This document shows, in pieces, positions 22,358-63,092 of a stretch of 64,000 bases of DNA. Origin of the DNA: Pseudophaeomoniella oleicola (lineage: Eukaryota; Ascomycota; Eurotiomycetes; Phaeomoniellales; Phaeomoniellaceae). Within the stretch, counting starts at the first letter, position 1. Each line of letters opens with the position of its first letter. The notes below the pieces were generated by a model that was not told where the DNA came from, did no database searches, and was given only the letters and a program-made list of their open reading frames with translations. The position numbers and the translations under genes were made by a program. The DNA lies in contig QWDQ01000027.1 of assembly GCA_003868215.1 (NCBI GenBank), positions 248,001-312,000 on the forward strand. The letters run 5' to 3'.

Positions 22358-22394
22358 TCCTCGATGGTCTAGTGGTGATGATTTCCGCTTGTCA

Positions 22395-22412
22395 AGATTC
22401 CCATCTAACGAG
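22395..22412 (+). other. canonical tRNA intron, copy 1
   Basis: 18 bases between A37 and C38 of the anticodon loop, the conserved eukaryotic tRNA intron position. Confidence 0.85.
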
Positions 22413-22435
22413 CGCGGGAGACCAGGGTTCGATTC

Positions 22436-22490
22436 GTAAGCATTTACACTTTAAATTCATTTTCTGAATAAATAACTAACATCAATACAG
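22436..22490 (+). other. spliceosomal-type insert in the T stem, copy 1
   Basis: 55 bases starting GTAAGC and ending ATACAG, with ACTAAC placed 10 bases before the end. These are the donor, acceptor and branch-site signatures of a fungal spliceosomal intron. Removing it rebuilds CCCTG from C plus CCTG. Confidence 0.75.
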
Positions 22491-22514
22491 CCTGTCGGGG
22501 AGACATTTCAATTC

Positions 22515-22521
22515 TTTTTTT
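22515..22521 (+). terminator. polymerase III terminator, tRNA-Asp copy 1
   Basis: A run of seven T residues 12 bases downstream of the discriminator base. Confidence 0.75.
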
Positions 22522-23985: not shown

Positions 23986-24022
23986 TCCTCGATGGTCTAG
24001 TGGTGATGATTTCCGCTTGTCA

Positions 24023-24040
24023 AGGTTAAATCTTTCCAAG
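24023..24040 (+). other. canonical tRNA intron, copy 2
   Basis: 18 bases, same length and position as in copy 1 but different internal sequence. Confidence 0.85.
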
Positions 24041-24063
24041 CGCGGGAGACCAGGGTTCGATTC

Positions 24064-24115
24064 GTGAGCATTTCCGATAACTTTGTCTTTGGATTCAATT
24101 TAACATATAATTCAG
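24064..24115 (+). other. spliceosomal-type insert in the T stem, copy 2
   Basis: 52 bases, GTGAGC donor, TTCAG acceptor, TTTAAC 12 bases before the end. It is inserted after the same T-stem base as in copy 1. It contains no run of four T residues that could stop polymerase III. Confidence 0.7.
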
Positions 24116-24137
24116 CCTGTCGGGGAGATTCAATATC

Positions 24138-24144
24138 TTTTTTT
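24138..24144 (+). terminator. polymerase III terminator, tRNA-Asp copy 2
   Basis: A run of seven T residues 10 bases downstream of the discriminator base. Confidence 0.75.
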
Positions 24145-29619: not shown

Positions 29620-31980
29620 TTACCCCGGCCCACCCATCAAAACCTTCTGTCCCCCCTGTTCCCCTTCCCCTCTCCACCCCTCTTTCTCTTCGTCAGCAGC
29701 ACCACCATCACCCTCAACAACGCCCCTGAAAATCCACTCCCGCACGACCGCAGTCCCGTTCGCGATCGCATCTCTCTCGTCGTCTGTACACGCGCTCGGC
29801 GCGAGCACGTAGCATTCATGCGGCGGGAGGGGCAGGAGTTCGGAACGGCGCCAGAAGGTGTCGGGGGGACCTTTTGTTGCGTAGTAGGATCCTCCTTGGG
29901 TACTTTTTCCTTCTTCTTCTTCTTCTTCTTCGCCTTCTTGTTCATTGGGGTATGTTGATAGTGTATCGACAGTGCCGGTCGCAATGTCGAGATTGAAAAG
30001 GGAGCGGCGGAATATTTCGTAAGAAGCGGCGGGCTGGTAGCTGGGGACCATGTGGCCGGCTTGGTAGACGCGCGTGAAGGAGAGGTTGGCGTGTTGGCGG
30101 ACGAGGCCGTAGGGGATGAAGGGGGGGGAGGTGGACGGGGAGAGGACAAGGGGAGTGTAGCCGGCGAGGGAGAAGGAGGGGGAGTGAAAGTGGGGGATGG
30201 AGAGGGAGGTTAGTTCGCCGTTGATCTGCGGCGGATCTAATGGTTAGTGATTTTGAAGAGGGTTCGAGGGATTGTGGTTGGTTGCTTGGGGGAAGGAAGA
30301 AAGGTGGACGCACCCAATTACAAGCGTAGTCTCGATCACCGTAGACGAGAGCAACTTTGACGCCGTTGTCTAGAAGATACGCAAGATCTTCCAAAAGGCC
30401 ACCTCTTGTCATATCCCCCGTGTTGTCAAACGCCGATGCGACGACTTCAGCGCTCCAGCTGTGATTCACCGGAGCCCCCAACGCCTTCTGCACCCAGTGT
30501 TGATTCAGGTATCCCACTTCGTACATGGCCGGAAACGGGTCCTGCTTCGGATGCGTGATGTCGAACCAGCCATGCTTACCTTCGGACATGTACGCGCCGA
30601 CGAAGAGTTCATCCACCGCATGGGAAGCGTTCAAGCAGAGTTGGTTCACGTACTCGTTGTCGCCGTGCTCGTCGGGGTCGTATTGGCGAGCTGCTTCTTG
30701 GCAGTCTTTGACCTGGTCGAGCAGTCCACCCGGTCGTTCGAGTTCGTACATTTGTTTGTGGTGGAAGGTTTCATTGACTGCCTTGATGCCATATGTGTTG
30801 TTGTAGAGCATCGAAGCATATCCGATAGCACAGTGGGCTTGTTCGACGCAGCCGTTGATTATGCCCAGAGTATCTGTGCTAGAGGTCAACAGACGTCATC
30901 CGGGAGTACAGCGGACAACAATACCCAGGTGCAGATAGTGGACTCCAGGTCCAGAGATGGTGCCGTTGTCGATCTTCTCGTTCTGACGAGCAAAAAATGA
31001 CATGAACGCCGGCCCATACTTTCCACCATATGACTCCGTCCATAGACTGATCTTCTCGTCATGAGGCTTGTACACAGGGAACCTAGAACATAATCCTATT
31101 AGGTAAGATTCGGTCGGGGGAATAAAAGTCGCTCACTCTTCGAACCATGTCTGGGCGAAATTCCATAAAGCAATAGCTGCATGCTCTGTGCTATTTGCTG
31201 TGTACGTCAAGTTCTGGCTAGGGAATGTACCGACCAGGAATGTGTTGTTCTGTTCGGGAATATCGCCGTCTAAAAAGTCTTTCAAAGTGATGCTCGAGGC
31301 TTGCGCATCCATTTCATTCGAACGAGCGAGACTCTTGGTACCATTATGGAGCGTGTCATACGAGTAACCTACCTGCACCGGCTGATCGATGAAAAGCATG
31401 TTGACATCATTGTTCCTAGGATTATTGGTTGGTGCTCCTGCGTAGACCAGACATGGAGAACTTGACCTACCATGACCAAGGGTTGAGCCTTGTGCTGTTT
31501 GAATCTTCATTGACGAAGCATGGACCATTCTCCGCCAGCAATCCAAGAAGCGATGAGCCACCGGGACCTCCATTCAACCAGATACTGAGCGGGGCGTTGT
31601 GCGGATCCTTCCGAGACTCGAAGAACCAGAAGAAGCTGCGAGCATATCAGAGGGACGGTCAACCCTATGTCCAAGGCAAAGGCTGCTCACGTATTGATAG
31701 GGTAGTCCTGTGCTTCTCCGGTTTCACTGAGAGAACCAGGTGGAAGATGAACATAGCCACTATATGACTTCACCCCCGGTGTCGTCTCGCAGATGCCGGG
31801 CTGCGGCAGAAACCGTCAATACTCCTTCTTGGCGAAGGACAGGGTTCTCACCTCTTTGTATGAAATGGAGATCCCTTCATGGTGTACAGATTTGACCGTC
31901 TTTACGCCTTCTCTTGGCGGAGGAAATTGGGCTGTGACAGTCCCGAAAGCAACAGCAGCCCAGATCAAAGAGGAATACAT
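29620..31980 (-). CDS. secreted serine carboxypeptidase, S10 family; one base out of frame
   Basis: Seven exons on the minus strand (31980-31852, 31800-31691, 31636-31471, 31415-31137, 31082-30925, 30873-30314, 30225-29620) with canonical introns of 51-88 bases. The product would be about 668 residues. It has a signal peptide ([18 protein letters not shown]), the S10 substrate-binding text [10 protein letters not shown], the nucleophile in [11 protein letters not shown], the aspartate in [10 protein letters not shown] and the histidine in [13 protein letters not shown]. It would remove C-terminal residues from peptides outside the cell or in the vacuole. In exon 3 the conserved words FFWFF and ESRKDP lie in different frames, with one extra C near 31620. 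This is either a sequencing error or a young frameshift. The long C-terminal tail carries a glutamate run and is not typical of the family. Confidence 0.82.
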
Positions 31981-56356: not shown

Positions 56357-58434
56357 ATGCCTCTCAACGCCAACGCCATTTTCCCCGCCTCGGGCCCCAG
56401 CTTCGTTCAGTTTCCCAGTCGCAGAAGTGTTGTTCACAGTACCAATGGCATTGTCGCCAGTACCCAGCCCTTGGCCTGTGAGGCGGGCCAACGAATATTG
56501 AAGCAGGGAGGGAATGCTGCGGTAAGTGTTACCCTTCGCCGAGTCGCATGGACCCGGTGCGCATTGCAAGTCAACAGCGGCTGACATTTGCCCACAGGAT
56601 GCAGCGGTTGCTGTTGGTATGCTAACCTCTCCGATCATTGCTTGACGACAACCGCAGCTTCAGGAAAACTGACACTCGGACTAGCTGCGGCGCTTAACAT
56701 GACCGAACCCTCGATGACGGGCATTGGAGGAGACTGCTTCTGTCTTTTCTACAAAGCATCCGACAAGAAGGTGTATGCTCTCAATGGATCGGGAAGAGCA
56801 GGTGCGAAAGTTACCCTTGACCGTGTGAGGAGCGACCTTGGTGTGAAAGAAGGTCAAGCTGGGTCGATACCGATGAGTGGGCCCGGTTCTGTGCACGCTG
56901 TTACTGTTCCTGGAGCAGCTGCAGGATGGGTAGATACCATAGAGAGGTTCGGAACCGGCAAGCTATCGATGGAGCAGATCCTAGAACCTGCCATCCAGTT
57001 GGGAGAGGAGGGATACCCGGTGTCCGAACTGAGTGCATACTACGTAAGCTTACCCTGCATAAGATACGTCTTTACGAACCACACCAAAAACTCGTCCTCA
57101 TCTTACGATGGAACTATACTGATGTTTCTTAGTGGCAAGTTTCTGAGGGAAAGATTCGCGATGCGTCTCCCAACTTTCGCGAGATGCTGAAGTCAGTACC
57201 TTCCGAGAAAGATGGTGTTCGTGCACCCAAAGCAGGTGAAATATTCCGCAATCCAAATCTAGCAAAGACTTTCCGTACTCTTGCAACTGAGGGAAAGGAG
57301 GCATTCTATACGGGGCGTATCGGCCAAGAGCTTGTCAAAGTTGTTCAGGACCTGGGCGGTCATCTCGAACTAGCGGATCTCGAAAACCATGCCAAGTTGG
57401 GTTCCGGTTCTCCTGATCCTATATGCTTGCATTATAGAGGCCAAAAGACAGGAGATGCTCCCTCCAGTCATGTCGCCGGGGATGCACCTTATGACGGGGT
57501 CAAGCTTTGGGAACATCCGCCAAACGGTCAGGGAATCGTCGCTCTGATGGCCCTTGGGATAATACAGGAGCTCGAAAAGGCCGGCAAGATCCCTCACTTC
57601 GCATCCCTCTCAGACCACAACTCCACGACCTATATTCACGCTGTCATTGAAGCACTCCGTATCGCCTTTAGCGACGCCGCATGGTACGTCACGGACCCGG
57701 ACGTCGTCAAAGTGCCATCCCAAGAAATGATCAGCGAATCATATCTCGCTGAACGAGCGAAGCTCTTCTCTCCTGACCACGCCCTACCCGCCACCCACCA
57801 CGGCGAACCATCACCCGCCCATCGCAGTTCTGACACTGTCTATTTCTCTGTGACCGACCGCTTCGGCAACGGCTGCTCCTTCATTAACAGCAACTACGGT
57901 GGCTTCGGTACCTGCATCATCCCCGCCGGATGCGGCTTCACATTGCAAAACCGCGGAGCCAACTTCAGCCTCCGGCCCGACCACCCCAACGCCCTCGCGC
58001 CGAACAAAAGACCCTACCACACCATCATCCCCGCCCTCATCACCAACGCCCACGACGACTCCCTGCACAGCGTCTACGGCGTCATGGGCGGCTTCATGCA
58101 ACCCCAAGGCCACGTGCAAGTCCTCCTGAACATGCTCGCCTTCCACATGACCCCGCAATCCGCCCTCGACGCCCCCCGCATCTGCCTCGCCATCTCCAGC
58201 TCCGACGACGAATCCAAGTCCGAAACGACCGTCTACCTCGAAGAAGGCATCTCGGACGCCACAGCCGCCGAGCTCGCCGCGCTCGGCCACAAGGTCAAGA
58301 TCCTGACGGGTATGGACCGCAGCATGTTTGGAAGGGGACAGGTCATCCGCGCGCATGTTGACGAGGAGTCCGGACGGTTCGTGTATAGTGCTGGGAGCGA
58401 TATGAGGGGTGATGGGATGGCTATGCCTGTGTAA
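56357..58434 (+). CDS. gamma-glutamyltransferase-like Ntn hydrolase
   Basis: Four exons (56357-56521, a 19-base exon 56598-56616, 56658-57043, 57133-58434) give 623 residues. The family cleaves or transfers the gamma-glutamyl group of glutathione and related compounds and matures by self-cleavage before a threonine. Seen here are GGNAADAAVAV across the tiny exon, [46 protein letters not shown], the predicted nucleophile T425 in [25 protein letters not shown] and the conserved [15 protein letters not shown]. There is no signal peptide or membrane anchor. That separates it from yeast Ecm38-type surface enzymes and suggests a cytosolic member, perhaps acting on other acylated substrates. The 3' part is strongly GC3-biased. 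Confidence 0.87.
56598..56616 (+). other. 19-base microexon of the gamma-glutamyltransferase-like gene
   Basis: It codes DAAVAV and one base of the next codon, between introns of 76 and 41 bases. It completes the family-conserved GGNAADAAVA text. Confidence 0.8.
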
Positions 58435-60619: not shown

Positions 60620-63092
60620 CTATTCGTCTTCAATGACGTACTCCTCGTCGCTCGCCATGTCTTCTAATGCATCAGAGTAACCGTCCGAGTCTACGGAAGT
60701 CACCTTTTTGAATGTTTCGTACGGTGTCAAAGCACCGATAGCTCGCTTTGCATGATCTTTCAGTATAGAAAGACCGTAAACATAACTGGAATTGACCCAT
60801 CCGAATCTATTCAACGTCAGTATAGGAAACCCACACAAAAAATGACAAAGACGTACCCTTCTCGTGGAACGCCCACAAAGTCAGCTCCTTGGTTGCCGTA
60901 CTCAGCATCAACCTTGTGGGGATCAAGTTCCCTGGTGACATTGTATTTCTCAACAACGACGCCGTTGAAGTCGACAAAAGCCTTTGTGGCCATATATACC
61001 CATTTGTAGGCCAGTGCTTCCGCGACATCCTGGTAACCATACCTGATCAGGCCGCCCCATGCAAGGATCTGTTGAGGCGCCCATCCATAGGGATAATCCC
61101 ATTGACGGTTGGGACGCGCCAGCGAAACCTTACCACGGGACTTCTCCGTTCCTGAGAGAAGACCACCATAAGCCTCAAACTTTGGCAAGGCGTGAAGAAC
61201 CAGATTAGCTGCCTGAATTGGACTTGCAACACCTGCCCACATCGGCCAGAAGGTGGTCGCACACTCGTAGGTTGTGCGCTTTCTTTTCACAGTATCGTAA
61301 TCAAAGTACATGTTTTTTGCCGAGTTCCATAGGTATTTGTCCATAGCTTGCCTGCGCTTCTTAGCACGACGATCCCATACAGCCGATGTCTCCACCGCAT
61401 CGACACGGTTCTCCGCTGTTTGAAACTCGGGGGGGATTGACAAACGCTCGTGGAAGTACCTCCGGATGCAGTTAGCAATATCGGTCTCGTACTTGTAGAG
61501 ACATGAGTTGAGATCAACCGTGGCCAGATTGGCAGCAACACCTTCAAGACGGTACGAGGTATCATGTCCGGACTCACGGACGGCACGATCGTGCAAAAAG
61601 TACTCGTCCAGCTCAGGTTCCTTGATACTACCATCATTGTAGCCCTTAACATAGTCTTCAAAGGTGATGCCGAGCTTCTCGGCGTACGGTGTGATGATAT
61701 GTACGAAATGAGAAGCTTCCGTCTCTGGCGGAACTCCTAAGCCACCAGGGCGATAGCGTGAAAGACCTGTTGCCGGATCATAACGCGGTTCGGACATCCA
61801 CACCGAGTAATATTCCTTGATCGCGGCCAAAATACCCAGCCGAAGGAAATCCAGCGTGGCCGGATCATCCTTATTTTTCCTCTCGAACACATTGAGAACG
61901 AAGTCGGTGAGAAATGGTGGCTGAGATCGCATGAGGTAATACGACCTGTTCGCGTTCAAGATCTTGCCATAATGTTTGATGCAGAAGCAAAAGTTCCGGA
62001 CCATTCCTTCACACAAATCCACCCTGTCGTTGCATAACAAGCCAATGGACTCCATATAGCTATCCCAGCCATACAGCTCGTTGAAGCGCCCTCCGGGAAC
62101 CACAAACGGCAAGCCTCTCATCTTTGTCTGGCCCGTCGTCTCGTCCGTATACTTCTCCATCTCCAGCGCAAGCATACCCGGTTTAGCGTTAAGATCTCTG
62201 ACAAATTCTGGAGTGATATCTTGATCTGGCAGCCATTGCACGTCGAGTCGGATCTCGGGACGGTCTTTTGCGACTTGAGTATAGTATTCGTATTGTTCAG
62301 GGGCACCGCGTGGTACGTAGATGCGCGGTCTGGGATCGTCAGTCCAGTCTTTCGGATCTCTGCCGGCCTTCTCGATATTAGAAGCGTCAATACGCCTAGT
62401 GAGGTTGTTCCAGAAGGTGTCCCGGATAAACCTGGATAACTTGTGCATGGGATTCTCGAACAGTCGCCTCTGGTCAAGAATGATCGTCTTTTGACCGTGA
62501 TCTTGCGCCAATGTAAGTTCCATCAGCAGACTAGAAAGAGCGTATGTGCCATTGATAGAGAAACTTTTATAACCGCCGGAGCCAATCGTGCCCAATGATA
62601 TTGTCTGCAGTCTTGGTCAGCCACTGCATTCGCCCCGCATCATTTGAGTAACTGACCTTGGGGCCATCGTCGTCGATTGTGATCTGAAAGTTGCCGTCGG
62701 TATCTTCTCTTTCAAGTAGGCGCTGACGAGTTTCGTCAACCATCACAACAAAGCGTCGAGGAAGGCTTGACGACTCATCTATAGGTCCGACATCAGTACA
62801 AGATTGGGAACAGGTTGCGGCATTGAGATACATACCGACACTGTGATTCCTCTGCCGAAACCCTGTCTTCACAAATTCTGAGACATTATGGTCTTTGATG
62901 AACTGCGCCAGTCAGCATTGATACGTTCTATGATATTGATGGACATGGGAGATTTCCTACCGAAGAAACAGCCCGGCCTCTGAAAGCCAAAGCCCGCTTT
63001 TCCGCTTGTTCATCGCTATAATAGACGTCTGCACTTGTAAATGGATCTGTGAGGGAGCTGCTACGGCGGTGTCGACCATATTGCAAGCTCAT
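60620..63092 (-). CDS. NTH1: neutral trehalase, GH37
   Basis: Five exons on the minus strand (63092-62961, 62902-62836, 62778-62657, 62604-60857, 60806-60620) with introns of 58, 57, 52 and 50 bases give 751 residues. The cytosolic enzyme splits trehalose to two glucoses when stress ends or spores germinate. Both trehalase signatures are present: [15 protein letters not shown] and [12 protein letters not shown]. The N-terminus has RRSSS (residues 9-13), a consensus for protein kinase A as in yeast Nth1, where phosphorylation and 14-3-3 binding activate the enzyme. The calcium-binding-like loop [17 protein letters not shown] is also present. There is no signal peptide, which separates it from acid trehalase. 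Three AGGGG stress elements lie within 160 bases upstream of the start. Confidence 0.95.

Follow-up and report, generated by a model that had tools for sequence, protein, structure and literature searches.

The window, that is, the whole 64-kb stretch of DNA analysed here, contains two tRNA-Asp(GTC) genes on the forward strand, each of which is interrupted twice. Copy 1 (22358–22502) consists of three exons of 37, 23 and 12 nt, which are separated first by an 18-nt intron and then by a 55-nt insert. Exon 1 (22358–22394) covers tRNA positions 1–37 with the A box, TGGTCTAGTGG, inside it, and is followed by an ordinary 18-nt intron at 37/38 (22395–22412) of the type handled by the tRNA-splicing endonuclease, as placed by ARAGORN on the joined sequence. 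Exon 2 (22413–22435) extends from the 3' strand of the anticodon stem to the first base of the 3' strand of the T stem and includes the B box. Exon 3 (22491–22502), identified with ARAGORN, contains the remainder of the T stem, the 3' strand of the acceptor stem and the discriminator G. The 55-nt insert in the T stem (22436–22490) is of the spliceosomal type: it starts with GTAAGC, carries ACTAAC from −16 onward, with ten more bases behind this motif, and ends with ATACAG, and its only match in the genome is itself. A T7 run located 12 nt past the gene end (22515–22521) is likely to be the polymerase III terminator. The preliminary description of this gene had claimed an 18-base intron after position 37, a 55-base insert between the first and second bases of the 3' T-stem strand, and these same intron-like signals, all of which we could confirm.

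Copy 2 (23986–24127) has the same layout, with exons at 23986–24022, 24041–24063 and 24116–24127 and an ordinary 18-nt intron at 37/38 (24023–24040). At the same T-stem site as in copy 1 it carries a 52-nt spliceosomal-type intron (24064–24115), which starts with GTGAGC, has TTTAAC at −17 and ends with ATTCAG. Its likely polymerase III terminator is a T7 run 10 nt past the gene end (24138–24144).

Standard annotation of the raw 64-kb window overlooked both genes. ARAGORN reported no tRNA, also when introns were allowed, and Rfam reported no family at gathering score anywhere in the window, and hence no tRNA. After deletion of the copy 1 insert, ARAGORN recognized a tRNA-Asp(gtc) that retains the 18-nt intron, and removal of the T-stem insert from either copy yields the same canonical tRNA-Asp. 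The three exon segments of the two copies are identical at 72 of 72 bases. The 18-nt introns show 11 aligned identities (shuffle mean 9.6, reached by 69 of 300 shuffles), a likeness no greater than that of shuffled sequences, while the T-stem inserts show 37 (shuffle mean 32.1, reached by 2 of 300 shuffles). Kept between the two inserts are GTRAGCATTT, YTAACAT and the final CAG. In the flanks of the two copies, 63 and 59 of every 100 aligned bases are identical, a figure that comes without a shuffle control. Counts of the motif string GTRNGY..CTAAC..YAG were 5 in the window versus 14 in the reversed sequence that served as a control, and those of the looser form with CTRAY were 27 versus 35. 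Thus, neither form is enriched over the reversed sequence, and the string by itself does not count as evidence of an intron. What is beyond chance is that the string coincides with a tRNA gene and recurs in nine tRNA species.

No uninterrupted tRNA-Asp gene was found in the 26.1-Mb assembly (112 contigs) at up to three mismatches, whereas the preliminary description had named several such tRNA-Asp(GTC) genes elsewhere in the genome as what would speak against it. At this threshold, a 29-place pattern for the 5' half of the Asp gene matched the two loci only, and a 34-place pattern for the uninterrupted 3' half gave zero matches; a gene with more than three mismatches in both halves would evade the patterns, and the 112-contig draft may be incomplete. 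Contig C110 contains a tRNA gene cluster that was taken as mitochondrial, and the tRNA-Asp on this contig was not counted.

The survey of nuclear tRNA genes combined Rfam RF00005, for which 63 of 781 candidates were scored, with generic anticodon/T-arm patterns and a hand reading of chosen candidates. The 51 matches of RF00005 divide into 36 nuclear ones and 15 on C110. The patterns gave at least 112 places, and hand-reading covered 29 of 30 loci, 20 further regions and another 6 regions. GT-AG inserts were identified in 11 of 47 recognized nuclear tRNA genes, representing nine tRNA species on nine contigs. The remaining genes are 31 insert-free ones from RF00005 and five insert-free ones from the patterns (Val-CAC, Pro-AGG, Tyr, Pro-CGG and Ala-CGC). 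The total of 47 is a lower bound and the proportion of 11/47 may change; RF00005 missed ordinary genes such as Val-CAC. Nine of the 11 insert genes, all but the Asp genes, came from searches in which neither GT nor AG was a criterion.

The inserts are located at several places in the cloverleaf, from which all position numbers were read by hand. The T stem is interrupted in the two Asp-GTC genes (61/62) and in Lys-CTT copy 2 (L050; 64/65), and the D arm at 24/25 in two Pro-TGG genes (L104 and L110). The D loop is interrupted in Thr-AGT copy 2 (L090), Phe-GAA (L048), Ile-AAT copy 2 (L052), Lys-TTT (L049) and Val-AAC copy 2 (L051). The insert of Arg-ACG (L097; G000:C29, tRNA at 109–231) lies in the anticodon loop at 32/33 and contains TACTAAC. 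None of the insert sites (D arm, 32/33, 61/62, 64/65) is the canonical 37/38, where the separate 18-nt introns do lie, and an intron of the 37/38 type is also present in seven of the 11 genes (both Asp genes, Lys-CTT, Thr, Val and both Pro genes). A pattern for T-stem inserts at the exact Asp position matched six places, among which the only tRNAs were the two Asp genes.

Genes for Trp, elongator Met, Ala-AGC, Gln-CTG, Leu-CAG and Gly-CCC, and separate genes for Thr-TGT or Thr-CGT, were not found in the survey. The assembly may lack these genes, or they may have diverged too far for the patterns, or be likewise interrupted. A tRNA-Ala(AGC) pattern gave one place with three mismatches versus three for the backward-read control, and a DNA query made of eleven fungal tRNAs recovered one locus only, a known tRNA-Leu. 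We also observed unusually long anticodon-loop introns of 56 and 58 nt in Ala(TGC) (L031) and Val(TAC) (L043), respectively, which do not start with GT.

All 11 inserts start with GT and end with AG, and their lengths range from 51 to 81 nt. The 5' site follows GTRNGY in ten of them and is GTCAGT in the eleventh, Val-AAC. A branch-like motif, YTNAY, is located 16–18 nt before the 3' end in ten inserts and 24 nt before it in Thr. The stricter NYTRAY was found by regular expression in nine, at −16 to −24, and the two Pro genes have ACTTAC at −16 as seen by eye. The motif thus varies, as exemplified by TTTAAC in Asp copy 2 and ACTTAC in Pro. The paralogous inserts in Asp and in Pro-TGG have kept these signals and differ in other bases, and the two Pro-TGG copies are identical outside the introns by visual inspection. 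Group I and group II introns have a catalytic core and are usually longer than 200 nt; this class was rejected on the insert lengths of 51–81 nt and the lack of any Rfam match in the window at gathering score.

With the insert deleted, ARAGORN recovered a cloverleaf for all 11 genes and the expected anticodon for nine. For Thr copy 2 and Val copy 2 without the insert, the program shifts the 37/38 intron and names another anticodon. A single placement of the insert yields the spliced product in seven genes; one to three other placements do so in the other four, none of them GT-AG. From the unspliced sequences, ARAGORN called the right tRNA in one case only, Arg-ACG. Since the insert of this gene lies between positions 32 and 33, both ARAGORN and Rfam accept it as a tRNA with an intron in the anticodon arm, and standard annotation would therefore misassign the insert to the endonuclease class.

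For comparison with the mRNA introns of the host, four were mapped in the window with the aid of homologous proteins. Phaeomoniella chlamydospora, a grapevine wood fungus, was the named best match in two of three protein searches, those with trehalase (60817–62616; 89% identity) and a carboxypeptidase (71%), and the best matches of a gamma-glutamyltranspeptidase carried no name. Two trehalase introns, of 50 nt (60807–60856) and 52 nt (62605–62656, 5' site GTCAGT), were mapped with GT-AG as the sole motif criterion. Two more, of 89 nt (57044–57132) and 88 nt (30226–30313, for which 30237 is another candidate 3' end), came from mapping with a filter that required GTNNG plus a branch-like motif, and the motifs of these two therefore do not count as independent evidence. 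The four introns have the 5' sites GTACGT, GTCAGT, GTAAGC and GTGCGT and the branch-like motifs ACTGAC, GCTGAC, ACTGAT and ACTAAC. Their lengths of 50–89 nt (n = 4, two under the motif filter) compare with 51–81 nt for the tRNA inserts, and the odd 5' site of the Val-AAC insert is that of the 52-nt trehalase intron. Judged by lengths and splice signals, the tRNA inserts and the host mRNA introns are of the same kind. The gamma-glutamyltranspeptidase gene has two further intron candidates (56522–56597 and 56617–56684), whose combined length of 144 nt is the same as the excess length of the tblastn match.

Paralogues that lack the insert are available for two of the genes. Thr-AGT copy 2 without both its introns equals the uninterrupted copy 1 (L006) at 72 of 72 nt. 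Lys-CTT copy 2 without the T-stem insert equals copy 1 (L027) at 87 of 87 nt, including the 37/38 intron, and the two Lys-CTT copies are located approximately 72 kb apart on the same contig (G000:C91). Uninterrupted relatives exist also for Ile-AAT and Val-AAC, although these are more diverged. The identity between paralogues fixes the junctions without recourse to the branch motif, up to a few equivalent placements. Comparison within the Thr-AGT and Lys-CTT pairs shows that the insert was gained or lost after duplication. The Lys-CTT pair is best read as a recent intron gain or loss, in which the copy free of the spliceosomal-type intron retains its 37/38 intron. This would fit loss via a precursor from which the spliceosomal intron was already removed, or simple gain in one copy. 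When the 11 introns were concatenated (640 nt) and searched against the genome at E up to 10, the matches were their own 11 loci only, and among the introns themselves likeness over long stretches was seen in the Pro pair only. An introner-like family of mobile introns, with many near-identical copies, was rejected on the grounds that no copies occur beyond the introns' own loci.

Signals for polymerase III are largely intact in the interrupted genes. An A-box regular expression matched nine of the 11 unspliced genes, with no match in Phe and Val; the match in Thr-AGT persists because the G of the intron GT stands in for the displaced exon G. A B-box expression matched eight, with no match in Thr, Phe and Ile, whose first bases differ from the pattern used. 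In the Asp genes the B box ends at the intron, as GGTTCGATTC, then G. None of the 11 precursors contains a run of more than four T residues, and T5 or longer occurs within 64 nt downstream in every case. On its own, the fact that the inserts lack T5 does not reach significance (probability 0.245 under shuffling).

Other polymerase III genes were examined as well. The U6 snRNA model gave six matches, one of them over the cut-off, and this U6 gene (L116; G000:C32:203080-203235, minus strand) spans 156 bases compared to 105 positions in the model. Its insert of about 56 nt, comparable to those of the tRNA genes, is located after GATTAG and before CATGGCCCC and ends with GCTAATATTTGCGTCTAG; the 5' site, GTTTGG, is unusual, and GCTAAT is present upstream of CTAG. 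The 14 genes for 5S rRNA that were found (47 of 1,233 candidates scored) are 120 bases each and contain no insert, which indicates that the introns are not a feature of all polymerase III genes, nor a habit of the assembly.

Thus, nuclear tRNA genes across this genome do contain introns of the spliceosomal type; as far as we searched, the host gene is new and the intron type is known. We put at roughly 0.9 the probability that the inserts represent spliceosomal introns of the U2 type, established in nuclear tRNA genes that polymerase III transcribes in this fungus. The spliceosomal reading given in the preliminary description for one gene gains support from GT-AG inserts away from 37/38 in ten more nuclear tRNA genes, and from the two insert genes whose uninterrupted paralogues are identical to the predicted spliced product. 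We infer polymerase III transcription, spliceosomal removal and the following order of steps from the sequences. Binding of TFIIIC to the A and B boxes would direct synthesis of the pre-tRNA by polymerase III, after which the nuclear spliceosome would excise the GT-AG intron by lariat chemistry, as for intron-bearing fungal U6. Excision would restore the D or T arm, so that the RNA can fold, be processed at its ends and leave the nucleus. Spliceosomal removal is placed before end-processing and export because a D or T arm that still holds its intron cannot adopt the normal fold. The 37/38 intron, where present, would be removed by the tRNA endonuclease and ligase, probably later. We further consider it probable, with somewhat less confidence than in the nature of the introns, that the mRNA spliceosome serves as a general tRNA-processing enzyme in this lineage, acting on at least nine tRNA species and, for seven genes, jointly with the endonuclease and ligase. 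It would be obligatory for all cytosolic tRNA-Asp, and translation of Asp codons would depend on it, given that no uninterrupted Asp gene was found.

The strongest competing explanation accepts spliceosomal introns, but proposes that RNA polymerase II makes the precursors, or that much of the precursor RNA is left unspliced; the introns would then be a brake or switch and not a neutral burden. In favor of this proposal, the spliceosome normally works in coupling with polymerase II. However, the promoter boxes inside the genes and the T runs behind them are for the most part retained, and the coupling is evidently not required, since fungal U6 and U3 RNAs bear spliceosomal introns and U3 is transcribed by polymerase III according to PMC5832005. 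We regard this alternative as improbable.

To our knowledge, the tRNA endonuclease makes the cuts in every known case of a nuclear tRNA intron. The inserts could be ectopic tRNA introns, cut at a bulge-helix-bulge motif by a relaxed tRNA-splicing endonuclease as in Cyanidioschyzon merolae. Such introns are documented in algal tRNA genes in sections of PMC3978253, and the enzyme must process the very same RNAs in seven of 11 cases, which have introns of the 37/38 type. As described there, the ectopic introns of C. merolae and of the cryptomonad nucleomorph resemble the present inserts in their unusual tRNA positions and in occurring several per gene in some genes. Those of C. merolae differ in being removed at the bulge-helix-bulge, and the sections concerned describe neither GT-AG nor a branch site; many nucleomorph tRNA introns are said in the same sections to form no defined motif. 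Ordinary eukaryotic 37/38 introns, present in the same genes as the inserts (e.g., 22395–22412), differ from them in position, boundaries and presumed machinery. Bulge-helix-bulge introns need neither GT-AG ends, present in all 11 inserts, nor a branch-like motif at a near-constant distance. The bulge-helix-bulge scores of the inserts resemble those of shuffled sequences (Asp copy 1, 4 of 10 versus a shuffle mean of 5.7; Asp copy 2, 6 versus 5.9), but the score has no power here, since 16 ordinary 37/38 introns used as controls did no better (mean 6.8 versus 6.6). On balance, we judge removal by the endonuclease very unlikely.

It is just as unlikely that the interrupted genes are dead or dying, with uninterrupted genes supplying the tRNAs and the inserts never being removed. 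Uninterrupted copies do exist for Thr-AGT and Lys-CTT, and diverged ones for Ile-AAT and Val-AAC. For Asp, however, no intact gene was seen at up to three mismatches, and a pseudogene reading was rejected, as all 72 exon bases are shared while the 18-nt introns and the T-stem inserts have diverged. The Pro-TGG copies, identical outside their introns by eye, argue in the same direction, and decay would neither keep the splice signals nor yield GT-AG ends in 11 of 11 inserts. Finally, the assembly is a draft of 112 contigs, but an assembly or annotation artefact has a negligible probability given 11 loci on nine contigs and at several tRNA positions, introns that each match their own locus only, uninterrupted 5S genes, and paralogue pairs that agree.

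Spliceosomal introns that have settled outside polymerase II genes have precedents. They occur in fungal nuclear rRNA genes, and a 1993 paper is said, going by its title, to describe an mRNA intron in 18S rDNA. The rRNA introns are likewise of the mRNA type, but their host is a polymerase I transcript and not a tRNA. The introns of fungal U6 snRNA, one of which is present here, are closer in that an mRNA-type intron interrupts a structured RNA transcribed by polymerase III. U6 is, however, itself a component of the spliceosome, whereas the hosts here are nine tRNA species, and tRNA has a dedicated splicing system. Fungal U3 snoRNA, according to PMC5832005, is a structured non-coding RNA from which the mRNA machinery removes introns of the normal GT-AG kind; the host in that case is a snoRNA with no second splicing system. 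That paper also names U3 and U6 as the only small structured RNAs so far known to be often interrupted by introns. In the openly licensed literature, phrase searches retrieved no paper on spliceosomal introns of nuclear tRNA genes, and among the papers listed by broader searches none reports them, judging from title and opening of the abstract. A report elsewhere is possible. A term search for "spliceosom" gave no hit in a review of tRNA introns (PMC4090602).

If true, a class of spliceosomal tRNA introns would link two RNA-processing systems that are usually taught apart. It would become testable whether splicing needs coupling to polymerase II, and, where an RNA is a substrate of two splicing systems, in what order they work. 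Intron gain could be studied in the Lys-CTT and Thr-AGT copies with and without the intron. It could also be assessed how many tRNA genes are overlooked by annotation programs, considering that neither ARAGORN nor Rfam reported any in the window.

Two families of similar elements were also observed, one comprising L073, L080, L100 and L101 and the other L099 and L102, with a repeated B-box-like sequence, GGTTCGATCC. Both families are possibly tRNA-derived SINEs, and L102 has a tRNA-Leu-like A-box region upstream.
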